Source: Thermoproteota archaeon (GTDB lineage: Archaea > Korarchaeota > Korarchaeia > Korarchaeales > Korarchaeaceae). From it: 10,865 nucleotides of DNA. Within the stretch, counting starts at the first letter, position 1. Every line of letters begins with the position of its first letter. The position numbers and the translations under genes were made by a program. The stretch is taken from positions 1-10,865 of the forward strand of contig JAGGTZ010000040.1 in assembly GCA_021158805.1 (NCBI GenBank), written 5' to 3'. Positions 400 through 10,865 of the stretch are shown here, piece after piece. A model generated the notes under the pieces. The model saw only the letters and a program-made list of their open reading frames with translations. It was not told the DNA's origin and searched no databases.

Positions 400-1461
400 T
401 CATTGAGAGATTACCTTCACTGCTGTGGCCTTTACCGACAGTAGAAACTCCTTTTTAGGCCCAATACCAAGCTCTTCTAGAGCCTGCCTAGTAATCACGG
501 AACGGAGCCTCACTTCACCAACCCTAAATGTCACGACATGCACTGGGCTCCTGAATTCTACGGACTCCACCACTCCCCTAAATACGTTTCTAGCACTCAT
601 AGGGGTTAGCTGACCCAAAGGATGGATGTATATGTCCTCAGGTCTTATCACCAGCACGATATCACCTTCTGCTTCATAAGCGGTTACTAACTCTAAATCA
701 GAAACTCTCACCTTGGAGAGACCCTCCTTCATCTTTTCAGCTCTTCCCCTCAGAACATTATCCATTCCCATGAACTCCACGATCTTTTCATCTCCAGGAT
801 CTTCAATTAGCTCTTGGAAGCTAGCGACCCTAAATATCCGACCATCAAACATAACGGCTATTCTGTCTGCGAGGAGACTCGCCTCTAAGTAATCGTGAGT
901 GACATGTATTGCTGTGAACCCAAGTTCGCTGTGAAGCCTCCTTAAGAATGACTGCAGCTCAATCCTTTTCGATTTATCAAGTGCTGAGAGTGGCTCGTCA
1001 AGGAGAATAGCCCTAGGATCGACCACTAGCGCTCTAGCTAGGGCTACTCTCTGCTGCTCTCCACCACTGAGAGTTGTAGGGTTCCTGTGGAGGAGATTCT
1101 CTATACCCAATATCTCTGCAAATGTCTTAACCTTCTTGATTATCTCTCCCTCATTGTAACCTCTCAACCTCAGCCCAAACGCTATATTCTCAAGAACTGT
1201 CATATGAGGGAAGAGGGCATAGTTCTGAGGGACATAGCTCAAGCCCCTTCTCTCGGGAGGGAGATCCGTGACATCCACATTATCAACCATTATCCTTCCC
1301 CTAATAGGCCTCACGATCCCCAAGATTGTCTGAAGCAGTACAGTCTTACCGGCGCCAGAGGGTCCCATAACTACCAAGTACTCTCCATCTCCTATAGATA
1401 GATCGATGTCCCTCAACTTGAACTCACCGAGGTCTACACTGAGTTCTCTGATCTCTATCAA
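400..1461 (-). CDS. wtpC: Tungstate/molybdate ABC transporter ATP-binding protein WtpC
   Basis: This is the cytoplasmic ATPase that powers tungstate/molybdate import (353 residues). The ABC domain is complete: Walker A GPSGAGKT at 33-40, Q-loop Gln79, signature LSGGEQQ at 131-137, Walker B ILLDEP at 152-157, D-loop SALD at 159-162 and H-loop His189. Residues from about 230 onward form a TOBE/MOP-type regulatory domain containing SARNVFRG. SARN is typical of molybdate/tungstate transporter ATPases, and in that family this domain senses the oxyanion. The start is TTG at 1459-1461, with GGAGG eight bases upstream inside the end of wtpB. It is the last gene of wtpABC and starts two bases after the wtpB stop. 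Substrate preference between W and Mo rests on the partner WtpA, not on this protein. Confidence 0.9.
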   Translation of the reverse strand: MIEIRELSVDLGEFKLRDIDLSIGDGEYLVVMGPSGAGKTVLLQTILGIVRPIRGRIMVDNVDVTDLPPERRGLSYVPQNYALFPHMTVLENIAFGLRLRGYNEGEIIKKVKTFAEILGIENLLHRNPTTLSGGEQQRVALARALVVDPRAILLDEPLSALDKSKRIELQSFLRRLHSELGFTAIHVTHDYLEASLLADRIAVMFDGRIFRVASFQELIEDPGDEKIVEFMGMDNVLRGRAEKMKEGLSKVRVSDLELVTAYEAEGDIVLVIRPEDIYIHPLGQLTPMSARNVFRGVVESVEFRSPVHVVTFRVGEVRLRSVITRQALEELGIGPKKEFLLSVKATAVKVISQ

Positions 1462-1463
1462 AG

Positions 1464-2234
1464 CTAGACCCTCCTCGAGAACCTCCTAATAGCAACGAAA
1501 GACACCAAACTAATAACTAGTAGGGGTAAGGCTGTGGCCTTAGCTACTTTTAATCCATAGGTCCAGAATCTCTCCATTATAAGCACATTTATTGACTTAG
1601 GGTAGTAGGCTACGATTAGCAGGGCACCAACTTCACTCATGCCTCTTGCCCAAGATAGGAGTGATCCGGTTATGAGAGAGCGTGAAGCAAGGGGCATCGT
1701 TACTTTCCAAAAAGTTGTGGATTCCGAGGCTCCAAGACTCCTGGCTACATACTCTAGATTCACGTCCACTCCTAGGAATCCGTCTATGAGGGAGTCTACC
1801 ATCAGAGGGGCAGAGACGAATGCCATCACTGCTACAATTCCCCAGAACGAATCTTCCAACTTCAGGCCTAAGTTAGTGAGGAGTGAGCCTATCATAGTCC
1901 TAGAGTTGTAAGCAACAAGGAGGGCTATACCAGCGACACCATGTGGTATTATCAAGGGAAGGTCGATTAGGGCCTTGATTAACTCTCTGCCTCTGAACTC
2001 CCTCTTCGCCAGCACATAAGCCAGTGGAATACCTAATGCCATTAAAATGACAGTGGCAAGCAGAGAAGCTGAGATGCCAATATAGAGAGCGCTCAGGGCC
2101 TCGCTATCAAACCCATACTTTATCACCTCCCTTGGGGAGGTACCTACCGTTAGGGATGCTAGAGGAAGGAGTATAAAGAGGATGAGGAGGAAACCTAGGG
2201 CGGCGAAGCCCTGAGCCATCCTCAAACCATGCAA
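1464..2234 (-). CDS. wtpB: Tungstate/molybdate ABC transporter permease WtpB
   Basis: This is the membrane subunit of the oxyanion importer (256 residues, normal for WtpB/ModB permeases). Six hydrophobic stretches can be seen, at about 10-30, 50-75, 88-108, 131-150, 186-208 and 233-250. The cytoplasmic EAA loop that docks on the ATPase lies at about 163-187 (ARSLGASESTTFWKVTMPLA), with the conserved Gly and the closing LP replaced by MP. The start is TTG at 2232-2234, directly after the wtpA stop. A GGAGGTGA site inside the end of wtpA serves it, whereas the in-frame ATG at 2217-2219 lies too far from that site. The gene abuts wtpA and is followed by wtpC after two bases, so translation is probably coupled along the operon. 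Confidence 0.88.
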   Translation of the reverse strand: MHGLRMAQGFAALGFLLILFILLPLASLTVGTSPREVIKYGFDSEALSALYIGISASLLATVILMALGIPLAYVLAKREFRGRELIKALIDLPLIIPHGVAGIALLVAYNSRTMIGSLLTNLGLKLEDSFWGIVAVMAFVSAPLMVDSLIDGFLGVDVNLEYVARSLGASESTTFWKVTMPLASRSLITGSLLSWARGMSEVGALLIVAYYPKSINVLIMERFWTYGLKVAKATALPLLVISLVSFVAIRRFSRRV

Positions 2235-3230
2235 CTAAGGTCTCACCTCCACTACGTCTCTCAGCTCAGCCGGGACATTCCCATAAGCTACTGGAGGTCT
2301 GATTGCAGGTTGTCCCAGCCTATCGAAGATATCCAGCCCTCTAGTGAGGATGAATCTCACGAACTTAAGGGCCCCTTCTTTATTCTCAGCTACCTTAGGG
2401 ATTGTGAGACCATAGGCTATGGGCGCTCCAACTAGTTTTTTCTCCTTATCACTATCTGCAAATATGTGAACTACTGCCTTTGAGTAGATGGAGGCCATCT
2501 TGTCATCCGGTGAACTCAGATCTATCTGAGAGGGAAGGTCTACATACCTTAAGTTGTGCTGGACAGCAACACTTTTGTACTCGAACGCATAATCTAAGGA
2601 ACCTGCCTCAAGTAATGATATGAGTTCGACGCTCTTAGACCTTACGACTATCCTCTCAGATTTAACTTCTACCGGATCAGGGATCCAGGCCTCGGTCCCC
2701 TCTATCCTCATGTTTGTGTTTTTCCTAAGTAGCTCATCTAGAGATACATTATAGAGCTTGGAGGCTAGAAGGAGGGTCATTACGCTCCTATAGCCACAAG
2801 GATCTCTGTTAGGATCGGAAAAGCCTAACTTCACGTCATCCTTCACTAATATCTGTAACCAGTTTTCTGAGCTTATTTCGTCGGCGTACCTGCTCTTCTC
2901 AGTATAAGCTAGAACTATCTCATTTTTAGCGAAGATCACATACCAGTCAGCATAGTCAGGGTACATCATACTTGGAATCAGCCTGTAGTCAGCCGATGCT
3001 AGTAGATCAGCTCTCTTGCCTAATTCAGTTATCTTTCTCACCGCTTCGACACTGCCACTCCCTTCTAATCTTACCTCCACATCCCTATCATACTCTTTAA
3101 CTATCTCTTTCAACGGCACTACAAGAGATCCTGCATGAAATACCTTAATTACCTTAGACTCCTCCCTTAAAAGGAAGGGTAGGGAAAGTAGGATGGCTGC
3201 AATGACAATTGCGACTAGAAATTTTCTCAT
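2235..3230 (-). CDS. wtpA: Tungstate/molybdate-binding protein WtpA
   Basis: This is the extracytoplasmic oxyanion-binding protein of the importer (331 residues). Residues 4-22 form a hydrophobic signal or anchor segment after MRK. The mature domain has strong WtpA hallmarks: HAGSL at 32-36, GSGSVEAVRKITELGKRAD near 57-75, ADYRLIPSMMYPDYADWY, NEIVLAYT, GFSDPNRDPCGYRS around 136-149 and FEYKSVAVQH at 216-225. In the Archaeoglobus homologue the metal is held octahedrally with an Asp and a Glu as extra ligands. The counterparts are probably in the DPCGYRS and FEYKS segments, with Glu217 the likely Glu. Unlike many archaeal binding proteins there is no cysteine in the signal region, so the protein is probably held by an uncleaved N-terminal helix or released. 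ATG at 3228-3230 follows AGGTGAT at seven bases. It is first in its operon. Confidence 0.92.
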   Translation of the reverse strand: MRKFLVAIVIAAILLSLPFLLREESKVIKVFHAGSLVVPLKEIVKEYDRDVEVRLEGSGSVEAVRKITELGKRADLLASADYRLIPSMMYPDYADWYVIFAKNEIVLAYTEKSRYADEISSENWLQILVKDDVKLGFSDPNRDPCGYRSVMTLLLASKLYNVSLDELLRKNTNMRIEGTEAWIPDPVEVKSERIVVRSKSVELISLLEAGSLDYAFEYKSVAVQHNLRYVDLPSQIDLSSPDDKMASIYSKAVVHIFADSDKEKKLVGAPIAYGLTIPKVAENKEGALKFVRFILTRGLDIFDRLGQPAIRPPVAYGNVPAELRDVVEVRP

Positions 3231-3794: not shown

Positions 3795-3828
3795 CGTTTA
3801 CTATATGTCCATATATCGGTGTGTTCCC

Positions 3829-4239
3829 ATGGCTGATAAGATGGCTATCGTTGTTTTTAGTGGGAGCGTAGACAGGCTGCTTGGTATGTCCATCTTGGCA
3901 AGTAGTGCAGCAGCTATGGACTGGGAGGTGGACATATTTTTACAGCTTTGGGGAGTCTACGCATTCAAGAAGGATGTTATGAAGGAGAACATGAACTTCT
4001 CTGAGTTTGAGGAACTGAAGGACGCTGTTGTAAAGAGAATACAGGAATTAAACTTCCCGATGTGGTATGACATATTAAAGCAGGGTAAGGAAACAGGCAA
4101 TATCCATATATACGCTTGCAGTACGGCAGCTAAGGCATGGAACGTAACCAAAGATGATCTAGAGATGGTAGACGATCTGATGGAGGCAGGAGAATTCATA
4201 GAAAAAGTACGCGATGCTAAACTCTCCTTCTTCATCTAA
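3829..4239 (+). CDS. DsrE/DsrF-like sulfur-carrier family protein
   Basis: This is a 136-residue protein of the DsrE/DsrF/DsrH-like fold (COG2044 type). It opens with the family beta strand and loop (MAIVVFSGSVDRLLG), followed by a helix with a Ser/Ala run and a second strand EVDIFLQLWG. Cys97 in HIYACSTAAKAW is its only cysteine and sits where these proteins carry their persulfide-forming cysteine. A DDLEMVDDLMEAGEFIE helix near the C-terminus is also family-typical. Family members pass sulfur as a persulfide to TusA or DsrC-like partners, and tusA is the next gene, 41 bases downstream, so a sulfur-relay role is likely. The start was placed at 3829 because the protein then begins at the conserved strand and the upstream TATA box predicts a transcript starting after 3805. 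No strong ribosome site precedes it, as expected for the first gene of an archaeal transcript with a short leader. Confidence 0.82.
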   Translation: MADKMAIVVFSGSVDRLLGMSILASSAAAMDWEVDIFLQLWGVYAFKKDVMKENMNFSEFEELKDAVVKRIQELNFPMWYDILKQGKETGNIHIYACSTAAKAWNVTKDDLEMVDDLMEAGEFIEKVRDAKLSFFI

Positions 4240-4246
4240 ATCCCAG

Positions 4247-4255
4247 TTTCTTTTT
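4247..4255 (+). terminator. Short T-rich tract after the dsrE-like gene
   Basis: TTTCTTTTT lies just after the dsrE-like stop and before tusA. T tracts are the main sequence signal for intrinsic termination in archaea, so partial termination here could lower expression of the downstream genes. No stem is present. A promoter role is less likely, because the distance to the tusA ATG would leave its ribosome site untranscribed. Confidence 0.25.
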
Positions 4256-4280
4256 AACTATCGTATAGGAGGGAGTAAAT

Positions 4281-4541
4281 ATGAGTATGTCTCCAGATGA
4301 GTTGAAAAATTTGAAACCCGATAAGGTAGTAGATGCAAGAGGTACTTCCTGTCCTGGGCCTCTCCTCGAAGCTAAGAGAAACATAGGACAAGTTCCAGTC
4401 GGTGGAGTAATGGAAGTCCTTTCCTCAGACGCTACTACTGTGAGAAATCTTCAAGCTTGGGCTAAGAAGGTCGGTCATGAATACCTAGGCCACATAGAAG
4501 AGGCAGGCTACTACAGGATCTTTGTCAGGAGGAAGAAGTAG
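4281..4541 (+). CDS. tusA: TusA/SirA-family sulfur carrier protein
   Basis: This is an 86-residue TusA-family protein. The segment VVDARGTSCPGPLLEAKRNI contains the hallmark CPxP motif at Cys24-Pro27, where Cys24 is the persulfide-carrying residue. It is followed by the usual strand-helix pattern, VGGVMEVLSSDATTVRNL and a helix reading QAWAKKVGHEYLG. In the family TusA accepts sulfane sulfur from rhodanese, cysteine desulfurase or DsrE proteins and delivers it to acceptors, including Hdr-like and Dsr enzymes in sulfur-oxidising or sulfur-reducing prokaryotes. The ATG at 4281 has GGAGG eight bases upstream; an ATG six bases further in is less well spaced. Its position between a dsrE-like gene and hdr/qmo-like genes points to dissimilatory sulfur metabolism more than tRNA thiolation. 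Confidence 0.93.
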   Translation: MSMSPDELKNLKPDKVVDARGTSCPGPLLEAKRNIGQVPVGGVMEVLSSDATTVRNLQAWAKKVGHEYLGHIEEAGYYRIFVRRKK

Positions 4542-4551
4542 GTGGTGAACT

Positions 4552-4974
4552 TTGAATGAAGGGGGGTCTGAACCCCTCATCTTGGTTTTTTCTACGAATA
4601 CGATATCTGACCCGGGTATAGACTTCACGGGCTTGATGCATCTTCATTACCCAACTAGGACTGTGATAGTGAGGCTTCCATGTTCCTCAATGGTCAGGCC
4701 CCAATTTGTCCTCTATGCACTAACTCACGGATTTGATGGTGTATTCATAGCAGCAGATGGCCCAGACTGTCCCTATCTCGCAGCTGCCTGCGTTGATATA
4801 ACATCCCAAAGGATGGCAGAGGCCCAGAATCTCTTGAAGGAGAATGGAATAAAGCCCGAAAGGCTAGCAATGGCTGGAATATGCTCGGTCTGTGCCGAGC
4901 CGTTCGTTAGATCGATTAAGGCCTTCTATGACAGGATCAAAGATCTCGGTAAAGTGGAGATCGGGGAGGTTTGA
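4552..4974 (+). CDS. MvhD/FlpD-family electron-transfer protein with altered cysteines
   Basis: This is a 140-residue stand-alone MvhD-type domain (PF02662-like). In methanogens MvhD passes electrons between a hydrogenase and HdrA through a [2Fe-2S] cluster; in QmoB of sulfate reducers the same domain is fused to the flavoprotein. Family features here are TGLMHLHYPTRTVIVRLPCS (strand with Cys44), FVLYALTHGFDGVFIA, GPDCPY (Cys73), and the KENGIKPERLAM segment that precedes the last helix. The usual N-terminal CxxC-containing loop is replaced by FSTNTISDPGID, which lacks cysteine. Instead Cys80 and a CSVC motif (Cys111, Cys114) are present, giving five cysteines in all. The start is TTG at 4552 with GGTGG six bases upstream; the nearby ATG is out of frame. 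No hydrogenase genes adjoin, so the partner is almost certainly one of the two HdrA-like proteins that follow. Confidence 0.85.
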   Translation: MNEGGSEPLILVFSTNTISDPGIDFTGLMHLHYPTRTVIVRLPCSSMVRPQFVLYALTHGFDGVFIAADGPDCPYLAAACVDITSQRMAEAQNLLKENGIKPERLAMAGICSVCAEPFVRSIKAFYDRIKDLGKVEIGEV

Positions 4975-4977
4975 ACG

Positions 4978-6336
4978 ATGTCCGTCAAATCTTGGTATGA
5001 GAGGAAGTATTATGGAGAGATAGAGGATCTGCCAGAGGAGGAGTACGATGTCCTAGTTATAGGGGGTGGAATAGCTGGCATTCAAGCCGCATTAGATCTT
5101 GGAGACATGGGATTCAAGGTAGTTCTAGTTGAGAAGGAACCATCGATAGGCGGTTTCATGTATAAGCTGAGTAAAACCTTCCCCACAATGGACTGCGCAA
5201 GCTGTATAGCTACTCCTAGGATGGCCCAGGTGTTCCACCATCCCATGATAGATCTGCTCATCTACTCCGAAGTAGAGGAGATAGAGAAGAAGGGAGAGGG
5301 AGATTTCAGAGTCAAGGTACTCGAAAAGCCAAGATTTGTGGATTCCTCCCGATGTACGGGCTGTGGTCAGTGTGAACTGGCCTGCCCTGTAATAGTACCC
5401 CATGAGTATGACTGGGGGCTAGCCGGTAGGAAGGCGGTGTATATACCCTTCGATACAGCCGTCCCTAGAATAGCTGTAGTAGATCTAGATCACTGTATAT
5501 ACTGCGGTCAATGCGAGAGGGCTTGTCCAACAGAGCCTCCCTCGATAGATTTCACCCAAGTACCCAAGATACATCATCTCAAAGTCGGAGCCATAATAAT
5601 AGCTACCGGATTCCATCTTTTCGATGCCAGGCTCAAGGAAAATTATCATTTCGGGGAATATCCTAATGTAATTCATGCAATGCATATGGATAGGCTCTTA
5701 GCACCTACCAGACCATATCACGCAATTCTCCGTCCATCCGATGGCAAGGAGCCCAACAATATAGCATATATCCTCTGCGTGGGCTCAAGGGACAAGACGG
5801 TTAACAACCCTAACTGCTCCCAGATATGTTGCATGTATTCAATAAAGCAAGCTCAGCTTATAATGGGCGCCCTACCACTTGCAGATGTCACCATATACTA
5901 CATAGACATCAGGGCGTTTGGCAAGGCATTTGAGGAGTTCTATCAGCAGGCCAAGGATATGGGAATAATGCTCGTTAAGGGAAGGGTCGCTAAGATAGAA
6001 CAGAAGGAGAACGGTGATCTCATTGTATGGTACGAGGATATAGAAAATGGGGGGAAGCTCTGTAAAGCAGAGCATGACTTAGTAGTCCTTTCCGTGGGAT
6101 TACTACCGAACAAGGAGATAGCTAATGTCTTTAAAGGTCAGAAATTAGAAGTAGACGACGTTGGATGGATAAAACCTGTCGATGAGAACGCGAATCCGGT
6201 AGAAACGAGCATTAGAGGTGTTTTTGCAGCAGGCACTGCACTGGGGCCTAAGGACATACCAGACTCTGTCATCGAAGGAGGAGCTGCAGCTATGCAATGC
6301 GCAGCATACCTCTCTGAGGTACGGGGTAGGCACTAG
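4978..6336 (+). CDS. hdrA: Short HdrA-like (QmoA-like) FAD/iron-sulfur oxidoreductase
   Basis: This is a 452-residue cytoplasmic flavoprotein of the HdrA family. After a short leader, an FAD-binding Rossmann fold starts at 24 with GGGIAG at 29-34 and the VEKEPSIGG turn. The HdrA motif FPTMDCASC follows (Cys73, Cys76). An inserted ferredoxin domain carries two complete [4Fe-4S] motifs, at Cys126/129/132/136 and Cys173/176/179/183. Further on, Cys267, Cys280, Cys284 and Cys285 in LCVGSRD and NCSQICC match the cysteines of the thioredoxin-reductase-like core of HdrA. It lacks both the N-terminal CxCGGNI domain and the C-terminal ferredoxin of full-length HdrA, so its size is close to QmoA. GGAGG lies eight bases before the ATG and the gap to the MvhD gene is three bases. 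It probably forms a heterodimer with the following HdrA-like protein. Confidence 0.88.
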   Translation: MSVKSWYERKYYGEIEDLPEEEYDVLVIGGGIAGIQAALDLGDMGFKVVLVEKEPSIGGFMYKLSKTFPTMDCASCIATPRMAQVFHHPMIDLLIYSEVEEIEKKGEGDFRVKVLEKPRFVDSSRCTGCGQCELACPVIVPHEYDWGLAGRKAVYIPFDTAVPRIAVVDLDHCIYCGQCERACPTEPPSIDFTQVPKIHHLKVGAIIIATGFHLFDARLKENYHFGEYPNVIHAMHMDRLLAPTRPYHAILRPSDGKEPNNIAYILCVGSRDKTVNNPNCSQICCMYSIKQAQLIMGALPLADVTIYYIDIRAFGKAFEEFYQQAKDMGIMLVKGRVAKIEQKENGDLIVWYEDIENGGKLCKAEHDLVVLSVGLLPNKEIANVFKGQKLEVDDVGWIKPVDENANPVETSIRGVFAAGTALGPKDIPDSVIEGGAAAMQCAAYLSEVRGRH

Positions 6337-6350
6337 CGGAGGTGACTGAT

Positions 6351-8306
6351 ATGAGTGAAGAGGAACTCCGTATAGGGGTCTATGTCTGTCATTGTGGGGG
6401 TAACATATCCGATTACGTTGATGTGAAGAAAGTTGTAGAGGCTATAAAAGGAGAGCCAGGTGTCGTAGTGGCCAAAGACGTGATGTTTGCATGCTCAGAT
6501 TCCTCTCAAAACGAGATAATTAATGATGTCAAGGAACATAATCTGAATAGGGTAGTAGTTGCATCGTGCTCTCCTAAGCTACACGAGCTTACCTTTAGAG
6601 AGACCGTGAAGAGAGCAGGACTCAATCCTTACTTGTACTATCATGCGAACATAAGGGAGCATGTTTCTTGGGCCCATACCGATACTAGGGAGGGAGCTAC
6701 TGAGAAGGCTATAAGGCATGTCAGAGCAGCTATAGCATATGTTAGGAATGCCAAGCCTCTGGAGCCGATAAGGCAGAAAACAATGCATGCGGTTCTCGTA
6801 ATCGGAGGAGGAATCGCTGGATTAAGGGCTGCTCTAGATCTCTCCAGAACCGGACTGAATGTCTACCTAGTGGAGAGATCCCCATTCCTAGGAGGAAGAA
6901 CCCCTCAGCTCTACAGGGTATATCCCGATGGGAGGAGGGGTGCTGATATAGTGAAGGACCTAGTGAGTGAACTAATAAGGAGGGATAACGTTGCCATATA
7001 CACCAATGCCGAGATTAAATCATTCTCCGGTTACATAGGGAACTTCGAGGTAGAGGTGGAGATAAAGCCTAGGTACATAAAAGTTCCTTATGATGAGATA
7101 AAGGAGAAAATTAAGGAGCTACCTGACGAAATACCAGATGAATTTAACTATGGGCTTACCAAGAGGAAAGTGATATACTACCCGTATGAGGGTGCCTTCC
7201 CGCGTATACCGGTATTGGATCTAGATCACTGTAGTGATGTAGAGACGATCAAGGAGCTGCTAGGGGATGCGGTAGATCTGGAACAGAAACCAGAAACCGT
7301 GAAGCTTAAGGTCGGGGCAGTTATAGTAGCTACAGGGTTCGATCCATATGAACCCAAGGAGGGAGAGTTTGGCTACGGCAGACAGGGTGTAGTAACGCTC
7401 CCTCAGCTCCACAGACTAATGGATCTTGGTAACGGAGAACTGAAACTGAATGGAAGGGAAATAAGAGATGTAGCGTTCGTATATTGCGTAGGGAGTAGGC
7501 AGAAGAAATCTTCTGAGGAAGAAGAAGTTAATGAGTACTGCTCTAGGTACTGCTGTAACGCTGCTATGTACATCTCCTCGCTCCTAATGGAACAGGGGAT
7601 AAGGACCTATCATATCTTCAGGGATATCAGAACTTATGGAAGGCATGAGAGGATGTACGATGAGGTCAGCAGGAAAGGAGGGATCTTCATAAAATACAAT
7701 GAAGATGAGCCACCTGAGATAGAGGAAGAAGGGGACAAGCTGCTACTCAAGGTGAAAGATCTTCTGACAGCAGGAGAACAACTGGAGATACCTGTTGACC
7801 TCGTTGTCTTAGTAACGGGTATGGTCCCGAGGAAGACTCCTGAGCTTGATGAATTACTAAGGATATCTAGGGGGAGAGATAGGTTCTACGTAGAAGTTCA
7901 TCCTAAGTTAAGACCCGTGGAAACGGCGATAGGAGGCATATTCATAGCTGGCGCATGTCAGGCACCTAGAGACATATGTGAGACCCTATCTTCCGCGAGC
8001 GCGGCTGCATCCAAGGCGGCTACTGTAACGTTAAGGGATGTCATCGAGCTAGAGCCCTTCAAGGCAGAGGTAGATCCAAACATATGCGATCTGAGCAAGA
8101 AGTGTATTGAGATATGTCCATATGAGGCGATAGAGATAAAGAACTATGAAGGCATCGGGGAGAAGGCATGGGTGAACAAGGCGAAATGTATGGGATGCGG
8201 TGCATGCGTAGCGGTCTGTCCTACGGAAGCTATACAGCTCAATGGACTCACTAACGAGCAGATAAGGGCAATGATAGAGGCTGCTGGGAAGGAGGTGATA
8301 ATATGA
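6351..8306 (+). CDS. hdrA: Full-length HdrA-like (QmoB-like) FAD/iron-sulfur oxidoreductase
   Basis: This is a 651-residue HdrA-family flavoprotein, close to the length of methanogen HdrA. In order it has the N-terminal domain with VCHCGGNISDYVDV (Cys13, Cys15), Cys48 in FACSDSSQ and Cys73 in ASCSPKLHE; the FAD fold with GGGIAG at 152-157; and core cysteines Cys379, Cys397, Cys401 and Cys402. A C-terminal ferredoxin has a full motif at Cys613/616/619/623, but its first motif reads C579, S582, C585, C589. The inserted ferredoxin region at about 240-320 keeps its length and flanking residues (FPRIPVLDLDHC) but only Cys294 of the usual eight cysteines. A GTG at 6342 is in frame, but GGAGG eight bases before the ATG at 6351 decides for the latter. 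It follows the first hdrA by 14 bases and overlaps the next gene by four. The MvhD domain of QmoB is absent and is encoded separately upstream. Confidence 0.9.
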   Translation: MSEEELRIGVYVCHCGGNISDYVDVKKVVEAIKGEPGVVVAKDVMFACSDSSQNEIINDVKEHNLNRVVVASCSPKLHELTFRETVKRAGLNPYLYYHANIREHVSWAHTDTREGATEKAIRHVRAAIAYVRNAKPLEPIRQKTMHAVLVIGGGIAGLRAALDLSRTGLNVYLVERSPFLGGRTPQLYRVYPDGRRGADIVKDLVSELIRRDNVAIYTNAEIKSFSGYIGNFEVEVEIKPRYIKVPYDEIKEKIKELPDEIPDEFNYGLTKRKVIYYPYEGAFPRIPVLDLDHCSDVETIKELLGDAVDLEQKPETVKLKVGAVIVATGFDPYEPKEGEFGYGRQGVVTLPQLHRLMDLGNGELKLNGREIRDVAFVYCVGSRQKKSSEEEEVNEYCSRYCCNAAMYISSLLMEQGIRTYHIFRDIRTYGRHERMYDEVSRKGGIFIKYNEDEPPEIEEEGDKLLLKVKDLLTAGEQLEIPVDLVVLVTGMVPRKTPELDELLRISRGRDRFYVEVHPKLRPVETAIGGIFIAGACQAPRDICETLSSASAAASKAATVTLRDVIELEPFKAEVDPNICDLSKKCIEICPYEAIEIKNYEGIGEKAWVNKAKCMGCGACVAVCPTEAIQLNGLTNEQIRAMIEAAGKEVII

Positions 8307-8584
8307 GTGGAGGGGTTAAGAACACGGTTTTAGAGTATCGAAAGAAAACTGGCGTAGAACCTCCCAAGGAATTGACAGAATTAGTAAAAGAAATAAACAA
8401 AATAAAGGCGAAGATAACAAATGCCCTTAAGGAAGGTCCTAAGACCATTCCAGAGATAGCCAAGGAAATCGGAATGAAGGAGAGCCTCACTGCCTGGTAT
8501 GTCCTCACATTCGTAAAGTACGACCTCCTAGAGCCTGAAAGCCAGACTGATGAGGGTTATTATAGGTATAAGGTTAAAGGGTGA
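8303..8584 (+). CDS. Small winged-helix protein within the hdr/qmo-like operon
   Basis: This 93-residue protein has a long first helix (about 24-43, KELTELVKEINKIKAKITNA), then KTIPEIAKEIGM (helix 2), ESLTAWYVLTFVKY (putative recognition helix) and a C-terminal wing DEGYYRYKVKG. This is the MarR/ArsR-like winged-helix layout. It has no cysteine, so a redox sensor based on thiols or an Fe-S cluster within this chain is unlikely. The ATG has GGAGG seven bases upstream and overlaps the previous stop as ATGA; the next gene starts within a few bases. It could be a local transcription regulator. Its tight placement between two subunit genes also allows a protein-protein adaptor role in the complex. 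From memory, similar small winged-helix genes occur beside other hdr-like genes; this was not checked. Confidence 0.72.
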   Translation: MSGGVKNTVLEYRKKTGVEPPKELTELVKEINKIKAKITNALKEGPKTIPEIAKEIGMKESLTAWYVLTFVKYDLLEPESQTDEGYYRYKVKG

Positions 8585-8589
8585 TTGGA

Positions 8590-9738
8590 TTGGTAAGGGT
8601 AGATCCCTCCTTCGTTGAGAGGGTCAAAAAACTAGGTGCGTTTGATATAACCGCTTGTTATAACTGTGGCAACTGCACTGCAATATGCCCCCTATCCTCA
8701 GAGGGCCATGAATTTCCGAGGAAGCTCATCAGATACTCCATCTTAGGAATGGAGAACAAAGTGATATCGGCGCCAGAGTTGTGGTTGTGCTATTACTGTG
8801 GTGAATGCACGGATACCTGTCCTAGGCAAGCGGATCCCGGTGGGCTCATGATGGCTCTCAGGAGATATGCCATAAGCAAATATTCGGTGGGCAAAATAGC
8901 GAGGATCTTCTATGACAAGGTAGCGGCGGCATTCTCTTGGACAATTCTCTCATTGATAGCCCTTATAGGGTTGGTAATGTTCATGAACCCGAATGTGAGC
9001 GCTAGCGAGATGGAACAGAACTTCCCCTTCTGTTTCATAGGAAAGGAATTTATTCACGATGCTGGGCTAGTCCTAGGCGTTATTGTAGTTGCACTAGCGT
9101 TAGTGAATCTCTACATAATGTATAGAAGCATTTCACTAGGTTACAGTAGGAGAGCGAAGGGTAGCGTAGGGCTTTGGGTGAAGAATTTAGTCCTAACACT
9201 GATAAGAGAGGTTGCTGCACAGCTGAAATACACAAAATGTGAGAATAAGCTCAGGTATATCGGGCACATGAGCCTCTTTTGGGGATTCGTGGGACTGTTC
9301 ATAGCTACCATAACCGGTTTCTTGAGGGATTATTATGACATCATGATACCTCCGGAAGTGTCCCTAGGCTTAGGAGTGATATTCGGGATCCTGTTAATCT
9401 ACGGATCACTCTACTACATGGTGGGCAGATTTAGTAAGAAGGAGGCATATGCGAAATATTCTCATCATACCGACTGGGTGTTCCTCTGGCTGCTCTTCCT
9501 CACAGGGATAACGGGATTCCTCATTACAATATTCAGGTTCATGGGATACCCATTCCTTACGTACGTATTGCTGCTGGTACATCTCGTGGTGGTATTCGAC
9601 CTCCTAATTACGGCCCCGTTCACTAAGTTCAGCCATGCTATCTACAGGCCTCTCGCCATCTGGCTATCAGATACGATGGATCAACTGGCTCGGGAGGCGC
9701 CTGGGGAGAAGGAGGCTGTCGCTGAGGTATCTCAGTGA
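8590..9738 (+). CDS. qmoC: QmoC-like membrane protein: HdrC ferredoxin domain fused to HdrE-like cytochrome b
   Basis: This 382-residue protein has two domains. Residues 1-95 form an HdrC-type ferredoxin with two complete [4Fe-4S] motifs (Cys23/26/29/33 and Cys67/70/73/77, each CxxCGxCxxxCP). The rest is a membrane domain with about six helices (near 114-131, 157-179, 223-245, 257-277, 296-318 and 321-343), resembling HdrE and nitrate reductase gamma subunits. His156, His226, His292/293, His331 and His349 are candidate heme b ligands. This HdrC-HdrE fusion is the architecture of QmoC, which passes electrons between the cytoplasmic QmoAB flavoproteins and membrane quinone. Start choice: TTG at 8590 has AAGGGTGAT with an eight-base spacer, like its neighbours; GTG at 8581, overlapping the previous stop, is possible and adds three residues. 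It is the last gene of the operon. Confidence 0.87.
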   Translation: MVRVDPSFVERVKKLGAFDITACYNCGNCTAICPLSSEGHEFPRKLIRYSILGMENKVISAPELWLCYYCGECTDTCPRQADPGGLMMALRRYAISKYSVGKIARIFYDKVAAAFSWTILSLIALIGLVMFMNPNVSASEMEQNFPFCFIGKEFIHDAGLVLGVIVVALALVNLYIMYRSISLGYSRRAKGSVGLWVKNLVLTLIREVAAQLKYTKCENKLRYIGHMSLFWGFVGLFIATITGFLRDYYDIMIPPEVSLGLGVIFGILLIYGSLYYMVGRFSKKEAYAKYSHHTDWVFLWLLFLTGITGFLITIFRFMGYPFLTYVLLLVHLVVVFDLLITAPFTKFSHAIYRPLAIWLSDTMDQLAREAPGEKEAVAEVSQ

Positions 9739-9858: not shown

Positions 9859-10818
9859 CTACGTACGGGAGATATGTAGGAGGATATCTCTCAAACCTAT
9901 GCCTAATGGACATGTGCTGGTGCATCCCATCTCGAGGCATTTCTTCGCTAATTCTCTCTCACCTCTCAAGATGTATGCCCATGCGGCCCATAGTGGAGGA
10001 GTATAGAGGTTACCGCATCTAGTACAGTAAAGGACTTCCTTTAGGATCGGATCCTTGGCTGCCCTCAGCCTTCCATTATCTAATAGTATCAAATGCAGCT
10101 CCCTCGGACCATGGACGCCGTAAGTGGTTCTTTTCTCTATATCTCCGGTCTTACTGGGTCCTCCTATCACATAGAGAGTATTCTGACCGGTGGATCTCAT
10201 GATATACTCGCTCACTTTGAAGGCCTCAGAATAGGAGGGAACGATGTCGTTCATACCCACGATGAATATATTGATTTCGGGAGTCATAGTCACCAGCCTA
10301 TCAGCTCCGTTAAACATGACTGAGAAGAGAGCACCGGGATCAGCTGCTATTACACTAGCACCACTTATTCCTACCTCGGCTTTACGAAATACCTCATCCT
10401 TGAGGAATTTCCTCATACAGTCAAGAGGCTCTTTGAATTTAGGGACCTCTTTCCCTATAATGCCATTCATATACTGGAGGATACCTCTATTTACCTCAGG
10501 CAACGACCCCAGCTTGGATAGGACCCCTAATATTGCTACTTCACAGACATTATTTCCTATTGATGCCAAGTGCCTGCCTAACCCGATCTCTTCTATCGCA
10601 TGGTCAACAACTTTCACAATAGTATTTCCAGACCCCACGATCTCTCCCACAATTCTCCTAGCTTCCTCGGCATCTTTCGCTACGTAACAGTGTCCCTTGT
10701 TATCCTCTACATTATCACATGTCAGCTTAACTAGCTCATTCAAGTGATCTATAGAATATTCTTTTATTTGCCTTACATCCTCAGCTAACCCAAGTAATTC
10801 ATCTTTACTGCCTAGCAT
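9859..10818 (-). CDS. LUD-domain (LutB/LldF-like) protein with degenerate iron-sulfur region
   Basis: This 319-residue protein has the LUD fold found in lactate-utilisation proteins LutB and LutC. Key segments are EVGISGASVIAADPGA near 148-163, NGADRLVTMTPEINIFIVG and, later, GGPSKTGDIE, YGVHGPRELHLILLDNGR (about 233-250). LutB continues with two [4Fe-4S] motifs. Here the region has only Cys265 and Cys268 (CTRCG, then no further cysteine of the first motif) and Cys294, Cys299 and Cys303 in a shortened second motif ending TCPLGIGL. At most one cluster seems possible. The protein is also shorter than usual LutB proteins. The ATG at 10818 has GGAGG five bases upstream; an in-frame ATG at 10830 has no good ribosome site. 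It is convergent with the qmo-like operon, and no lutA or lutC partner is in view. Substrate and function are not known from the sequence. Confidence 0.75.
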   Translation of the reverse strand: MLGSKDELLGLAEDVRQIKEYSIDHLNELVKLTCDNVEDNKGHCYVAKDAEEARRIVGEIVGSGNTIVKVVDHAIEEIGLGRHLASIGNNVCEVAILGVLSKLGSLPEVNRGILQYMNGIIGKEVPKFKEPLDCMRKFLKDEVFRKAEVGISGASVIAADPGALFSVMFNGADRLVTMTPEINIFIVGMNDIVPSYSEAFKVSEYIMRSTGQNTLYVIGGPSKTGDIEKRTTYGVHGPRELHLILLDNGRLRAAKDPILKEVLYCTRCGNLYTPPLWAAWAYILRGERELAKKCLEMGCTSTCPLGIGLRDILLHISRT

Positions 10819-10865
10819 TTGCTCCTCCATGTATCCCGAGTAAAAGAGTGAGACTACTTGGGCAA

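Follow-up and report, generated by a model that had tools for sequence, protein, structure and literature searches.

The operon and the closest described systems

Type II QmoABC complexes combine the membrane subunit QmoC with two HdrA-type subunits, which are nearer to HdrA than those of canonical QmoAB. They are found both in the presence and in the absence of Dsr and Apr and, in the parts of the description available here, their role is said to need further experiments (PMC10504309). In this study we analyzed a seven-gene operon in which such an HdrA-HdrA-QmoC core is linked to genes for a separate FlpD-family adaptor and for the sulfur carriers DsrE and TusA. The operon is located on the forward strand at positions 3829-9738 of a contig of 10,865 nucleotides (JAGGTZ010000040.1 of GenBank assembly GCA_021158805.1, contig C28 in our numbering), which is called the window in the following and belongs to a korarchaeal draft genome of 1.46 Mb in 230 contigs (79% complete). 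Its core fits the type II Qmo description, as far as the consulted sections go (PMC10504309). The long HdrA reached 481 bits to HdrA 5odc_A, its best solved relative, versus 184-202 bits to three canonical QmoB, which places it nearer to HdrA than to the canonical Qmo subunits in this assignment, based on bit scores and the published description rather than a tree with published type II sequences. The Vulcanisaeta that carries the operon (locus L036) is a different species from the published type II Qmo bearer Vulcanisaeta moutnovskia. In the accessible portion of that description, type II Qmo is linked neither with TusA and DsrE nor with a free FlpD or a CxxC switch (PMC10504309). Type II Qmo is the closest published system, and the TusA/DsrE link and a residue switch in FlpD appear to be new. 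The sequence-only reading, which had suggested an undescribed module, was too broad for the core and stands for the linkage: no description of the TusA/DsrE linkage or of the FlpD switch was found in the literature, where Chernyh et al. (2020) or supplements might mention the linkage.

Other systems share parts of this gene set. Canonical QmoABC has HdrA-like A and B subunits, a heme-bearing QmoC and an FlpD-like C-terminal domain in QmoB. Its FlpD domain is fused to QmoB in all three canonical QmoB compared, whereas FlpD is encoded by a separate gene in the operon, and its partner is adenosine 5'-phosphosulfate (APS) reductase. The sHdr system links an HdrA-type protein with TusA and DsrE, and also includes HdrB and HdrC subunits as well as a lipoate-binding protein. 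The operon shares this link of HdrA-type proteins with both carriers but has no HdrB and contains a QmoC membrane subunit instead. The Mvh-Hdr-Qmo hydrogenase cluster, known in Ca. Methanoglobus, consists of QmoC, two HdrA, FlpD and hydrogenase subunits, and was proposed, in the part of the paper seen, to feed electrons from H2 to menaquinone and ferredoxin (PMC10945360). The YTD cluster of sulfur disproportionators also has tusA beside a dsrE-type gene; according to the available sections it contains yedE and conserved hypotheticals, whereas the operon encodes an Hdr/Qmo complex and no yedE-type transporter was identified among the window's open reading frames (ORFs) (PMC12998232, PMC8780430, PMC9751629). 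For Korarchaeia, conserved HdrABC/MvhD units of unclear role were described, and TusA is unmentioned in the accessible text (PMC10667645).

The seven genes are arranged head-to-tail in the following order (lengths in amino acids, aa):

3829..4239, + strand: DsrE-family sulfur carrier, 136 aa, Pfam PF13686/PF02635 (DsrE/DrsE_2), with Cys97
4281..4541, + strand: TusA sulfur carrier, 86 aa, Pfam PF01206 (73 bits), Cys24 in a C-P-G-P motif
4552..4974, + strand: FlpD/MvhD-family adaptor, 140 aa, Pfam PF02662, with C111-x-x-C114 and without the MvhD N-terminal Cys pair
4978..6336, + strand: short HdrA, 452 aa (Pfam, NCBIfam), FAD domain with an inserted two-cluster ferredoxin, QmoA-like role
6342..8306, + strand: long HdrA, 654 aa, N-terminal domain, FAD domain and C-terminal ferredoxin, QmoB-like role without the MvhD tail
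8303..8584, + strand: small winged-helix-like protein, 93 aa, PF01022 (ArsR-type helix-turn-helix, HTH) at 20.2 bits, below the cut-off of 22
8581..9738, + strand: QmoC-like membrane subunit, 385 aa, NF038018 (qmoC) at 218 bits, below the cut-off of 300

The intergenic gaps are 41, 10, 3, 5, -4 and -4 bases in operon order. An alternative in-frame ATG of the first gene is found at 3805, and a TATA-like stretch was spotted by eye 5' of this gene. Both flavoproteins match the NCBIfam HdrA/HdrA2 models below their full-length cut-offs. The QmoC-like subunit has two 4Fe-4S motifs, hydrophobic helices and conserved His residues for b hemes. The gene set read from the sequence was recovered in full, with ORFs at these positions and matching Pfam or NCBIfam domains. 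The label MvhD names the correct family, but in this protein the MvhD N-terminal Cys pair is gone and a new CxxC is present. No Pfam match to the CCG (HdrB) domain was found among the window proteins, and the CCG matches of the same genome sit on other contigs (C22, C116, C149 and C173). Heterodisulfide reductase HdrABC contains HdrB with CCG domains, and the operon differs from it in this respect, as the earlier reading had held.

Conserved linkage and the residue switch in FlpD

For analysis of the gene neighborhood, a QmoC alignment was scanned against one genome per species (84,980 species). At least 550 relatives were obtained and the best 80 loci were kept. For 48 of these, the DNA extends over 6 kb upstream from QmoC, and partners were sought within 7.5 kb upstream. 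TusA and FlpD were each detected in 45 of the 48 loci, the short HdrA in 47 and the long HdrA in 46. The winged-helix gene was located upstream of QmoC in 43, and a DsrE-family ORF was present anywhere in the fetched locus in 44. The operon is therefore real and deeply conserved, more than chance or a local oddity, and a search for the gene set in other genomes, as had been proposed, showed the TusA linkage to extend over both domains of life. The 51 TusA-bearing loci are spread over 12 named phyla of bacteria and 5 of archaea, with 9 loci without phylum; these labels are record titles, and most of the loci are metagenome bins. TusA was missed in locus L035 and in two hydrogenase-type loci (L049, L073), FlpD in the latter two and in the Vulcanisaeta locus L036, where FlpD pieces including the CxxC are present in broken frames. 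In this record, TusA and FlpD span broken frames (L036 5671-6200), perhaps draft errors. Within the own phylum, a QmoC relative (E 1e-40) occurs in 7 of 29 genomes and the TusA form in only the own genome and G075, a member of another genus, so the operon is patchy there. The flanks of the loci revealed no further conserved partner; they contain DsrE variants, ArsR-type HTH proteins (9 loci) and unrelated or generic genes, and a YedE-like ORF was found in 3 of the 80 loci. TusA fusions were considered and rejected: four long "TusA" ORFs (L043, L052, L053 and L075) have no second Pfam domain and are read as over-long ORF calls. The small winged-helix protein may be a regulator or a small subunit. 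In G075, a TauE/SafE transporter gene (L099 1750-2574) lies upstream of the operon, and a hydrogenase-like gene set (L118 202-5065, labels assigned by eye) is located farther along the same contig.

The carrier residues are strictly conserved. Each residue of the TusA C-P-G-P motif is present in 53 of 53 sequences, and Cys97 of DsrE in all 24 aligned DsrE. FlpD was compared in 53 TusA-type rows (45 aligned and 8 added), four hydrogenase-linked FlpD, three canonical QmoB and two solved MvhD. C111-x-x-C114 is found in 53 of 53 TusA-type rows, one of which (L035) has no TusA nearby. It is absent from all four hydrogenase-linked FlpD, from the three canonical QmoB tails and from the solved MvhD 5odc_D and 9sw2_D. 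The N-terminal Cys pair of MvhD helps to hold a [2Fe-2S] cluster. Its first Cys is retained in none of the 52 readable TusA-type rows and its second in 7 of 53, while all four hydrogenase-linked FlpD retain the pair. The residue switch in FlpD thus tracks the partner, TusA versus hydrogenase, in these alignments. The CxxC also occurs in all 120 best database matches, which are close relatives by construction. Three further cysteines are frequently kept in the TusA type (C44 in 42, C73 in 47 and C80 in 42 of 53 rows). Since four loci (L046, L051, L060 and L066) retain only the CxxC, the feature common to all rows appears to be a dithiol and not a cluster with four Cys ligands. One branch of the FlpD tree sets the 45 TusA-type rows apart (support 99, weaker than it appears with the quick method used for all trees). 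Five hydrogenase rows group together at a low support of 56, and a warning of long branches was given for this tree.

The two HdrA subunits differ in their redox anatomy. The short HdrA is without the N- and C-terminal HdrA domains and keeps the cysteines of its inserted ferredoxin in all aligned rows. In the window copy of the long HdrA, the insert ferredoxin cysteines are mostly lost, and one Cys of the C-terminal ferredoxin, which is Cys in 46 of 71 rows, is replaced by Ser585. A Lys at one flavoprotein position, which we take to be K409 of methanogen HdrA, is present in all 54 short HdrA and in none of the 72 long HdrA (His in 43); it is also found in the three canonical QmoB. The two flavins are therefore unlikely to be equal. 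QmoC carries its eight Fe-S cysteines as well as His229, His334 and His352 in 80 of 80 sequences, and His159 in 58. The short HdrA is about 900 aa long in 20 of the 59 loci in which it exceeds 400 aa. The additional part, scanned in three of the 20 (L007 5363-8071, L052 5297-8017 and L055 5228-7984), is an inserted Fer4_20 plus pyridine-nucleotide domain, reminiscent of HdrL-type fusions and pointing to NAD(P)H as a possible further partner.

Sister hydrogenase operons, APS reductase and general sulfur donors

In the own genus and family, sister operons were found in which hydrogenase genes replace DsrE-TusA (L098, L100, L107 and L127). Their order is QmoC, short HdrA, long HdrA, FlpD, and the small and then the large hydrogenase subunit (MvhG-MvhA). 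The copy of the own genome (contig C92, L098 6307-9193) is cut by the contig end and its FlpD is probably the match on contig C18; the operon is complete in G059, G069 and G076. Both MvhG and MvhA are present in L049, L073, L100, L107 and L127, and none was found among the ORFs of the window. With QmoC, two HdrA and FlpD, the sister operons (L098, L100, L107) resemble the Mvh-Hdr-Qmo cluster, as far as its description could be consulted (PMC10945360). They differ from the TusA operon by the hydrogenase subunits in place of DsrE-TusA, by an FlpD which keeps the MvhD-type Cys pair and is without the CxxC, by gene order, and by the winged helix, for which neither of the hydrogenase-type loci L049 and L073 gave a match. 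Two soluble partners are thus available to one kind of core.

In the QmoC tree (9 near-duplicates left out), hydrogenase-linked rows are scattered over four positions between TusA-linked ones; the sample of hydrogenase rows is small. One of them, L096, has a long branch and its hydrogenase genes were confirmed. The two HdrA trees, from which 14 named loci and rows shorter than 350 or 420 aa were left out, need two changes for three groups. In the simplest reading, the soluble part would travel with its partner, and the membrane anchor would be shared and swapped.

It might be assumed that the complex of the window is also of the hydrogenase type, with the hydrogenase encoded elsewhere and TusA/DsrE being incidental. 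Its core is homologous, and the genus and family contain sister operons that encode MvhG and MvhA. However, in the TusA-type FlpD the first N-terminal Cys is missing from all 52 readable rows and the second from 46 of 53, both of which the hydrogenase-linked FlpD retain, and the own genome already has the start of a hydrogenase-type operon on C92. This explanation is very improbable.

An ordinary Qmo, in which the complex feeds or draws on APS reductase and TusA/DsrE carry out sulfur trafficking beside it, has the same domain set as QmoABC. Type II Qmo was described in the sulfate-reducing Vulcanisaeta moutnovskia, in the part of the work available here (PMC10504309), and the genome of the Vulcanisaeta with the operon (L036) contains AprA and DsrA. 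AprA and DsrA were surveyed in the own genome and 50 other carriers (51 genomes), with 30 of the 80 loci left out, and Sat and terminal oxidases in 52 genomes. Neither AprA nor DsrA was found in the own genome at its 79% completeness, and the earlier reading, which their presence with this operon as the sole Qmo would have contradicted, holds on this point. AprA was detected in 6 of 51 genomes, four times over the cut-off of 642 and split into two long pieces in both G033 and G048, while the others gave 48 bits at most; none of the 29 genomes of the own phylum has AprA over the cut-off. DsrA was present in 7 of 51 genomes, in three of them at 322-335 bits (cut-off 393), and reached 49 bits at most in the others.

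Each of the six AprA genomes holds another candidate partner for AprAB. In a search for canonical QmoC in 15 genomes, G043 and G046 showed a separate canonical QmoC (399 and 391 bits versus 189 and 175 for the operon copy) adjoining a canonical QmoB. G048 has QmoA-, QmoB-, HdrC- and HdrB-like ORFs beside its AprA piece. In G012, G026 and G033, the Apr genes adjoin an ORF for a small membrane protein, presumably AprM, that weakly resembles QmoC (13-57 bits). Canonical QmoC is also far from the operon QmoC in the tree. Ordinary Qmo was rejected for most carriers on the basis of the AprA and DsrA surveys and these other Apr partners; it is unlikely for most carriers, and quite improbable as an account of the complex.

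Sat is over the cut-off in 27 of 52 genomes, including the own genome (396 bits), so that the proposed check for sat gave a positive result. However, the own Sat looks assimilatory because an APS-kinase-like ORF (label by eye) adjoins it, as in G075, and AprA was not found. A dissimilatory Sat was rejected for the same reasons. On contig C220 of the own genome (L119), Sat is accompanied by APS-kinase-like and phosphatase/sulfatase-like ORFs, identified by eye, and similar sets were seen in L120 and L125.

Upstream of the operon, a divergent tungstate ABC transporter WtpC-WtpB-WtpA is encoded (window 400-3230, - strand). Homologues of WtpA and WtpB were found in just one of the 80 fetched loci (L015), and a tungsten link was rejected. 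Downstream lies a convergent LUD-domain, LutB-like gene (window 9859-10830, - strand), of which no counterpart was found in the 80 loci.

Proteins of the TusA families act in more than one pathway. TusA and DsrE could thus be general sulfur donors for tRNA, molybdo-/tungstopterin or Fe-S cluster synthesis which are co-transcribed with a redox complex of unrelated substrate, the CxxC being structural or a cluster ligand. The adjoining tungstate transporter genes fit this idea, and in most rows a four-Cys site could be made up of C44, C73, C111 and C114. On the other hand, TusA is kept in the operon across distant taxa (45 of 48 loci), the Wtp homologues are confined to one locus, the own genome has two further TusA-family matches, one of them over the cut-off, and the change in FlpD tracks TusA versus hydrogenase. 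We regard general donation as unlikely, while still giving it some weight.

Proposed circuit, direction and implications

The linkage and the conserved residues suggest that a persulfide on TusA acts as electron donor or acceptor. We lean, by a modest degree, towards a membrane-bound TusA-persulfide:quinone oxidoreductase in which FlpD serves as the sulfur-facing adaptor. The products would form one complex with a quinone as the final partner. DsrE would probably load or unload TusA, which would present sulfane sulfur to FlpD. The CxxC of FlpD may then carry out the sulfur chemistry, taking a persulfide in and releasing sulfide or the reverse, and electrons would be exchanged with the two HdrA flavoproteins, short and long, which QmoC would connect to the quinone pool. 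In bacteria with the NAD(P)H-type insert in the short HdrA, NAD(P)H could join the circuit.

COX1 and cytochrome bd were both below the cut-off in 29 of 52 genomes, including the own genome and G075. As the own genome and over half of all genomes show no terminal oxidase, reduction of the persulfide is slightly favored over its oxidation. Since menaquinol on its own is a poor electron donor to persulfide, the HdrA flavins may combine it with a second donor such as ferredoxin or NAD(P)H.

Several observations weigh against a persulfide:quinone oxidoreductase. Besides the weakness of menaquinol as a donor, 23 of the 52 genomes have an oxidase-family match, which fits an oxidative role there; some of the COX1-family matches may be nitric oxide reductases. 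With C44 and C73 retained, most FlpD might bind a re-ligated Fe-S cluster. Locus L035 (5791-11104) has a CxxC FlpD, both HdrA, the winged helix and QmoC, yet neither TusA nor DsrE was found in the fetched DNA. Finally, a crude scan for CCG-type patterns in 83 loci gave three ORFs: one about 5 kb away in L048, one in the hydrogenase-type L073 and one in an Archaeoglobales bin (L057 9262-10413), which has a QmoC-like N-terminal Fe-S part and is located directly downstream of QmoC. After the example of L057, some lineages may have added an HdrB-like subunit.

TusA and DsrE feed sHdr in known sulfur oxidizers. A module of the sHdr kind, in which TusA gives sulfane sulfur to the Hdr-like complex for oxidation to sulfite, is a further alternative. 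However, the operon has no HdrB-type subunit, the three CCG-type ORFs stand against 83 loci, and over half of the genomes are without an oxidase over the cut-off. No match to the lipoate-binding protein LbpA was found by Pfam among the seven operon proteins; a genome-wide search was not made. Sulfur oxidation of this kind is improbable here.

Returning to the persulfide:quinone oxidoreductase, a wider proposal can be made tentatively, with the balance tipped slightly against it as a whole. The operon would encode an unrecognised respiratory complex of both domains, mostly in organisms lacking Dsr or Apr, which exchanges electrons between TusA persulfide and quinone (and NAD(P)H in some bacteria). 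It would have arisen when the hydrogenase adaptor MvhD and the CxxC sulfur-relay form diverged, so that one HdrA-HdrA-QmoC design could take either H2 or protein-bound sulfur. The CxxC of FlpD would serve as a one-motif marker which separates sulfur-linked from hydrogen-linked complexes. Some public records name close FlpD homologues "hydrogenase iron-sulfur subunit", a misleading annotation. If the proposal is true, it would provide a concrete function for type II Qmo complexes (PMC10504309), and would reveal a cytoplasmic, carrier-bound route by which many poorly studied anaerobic archaea and bacteria respire sulfur.

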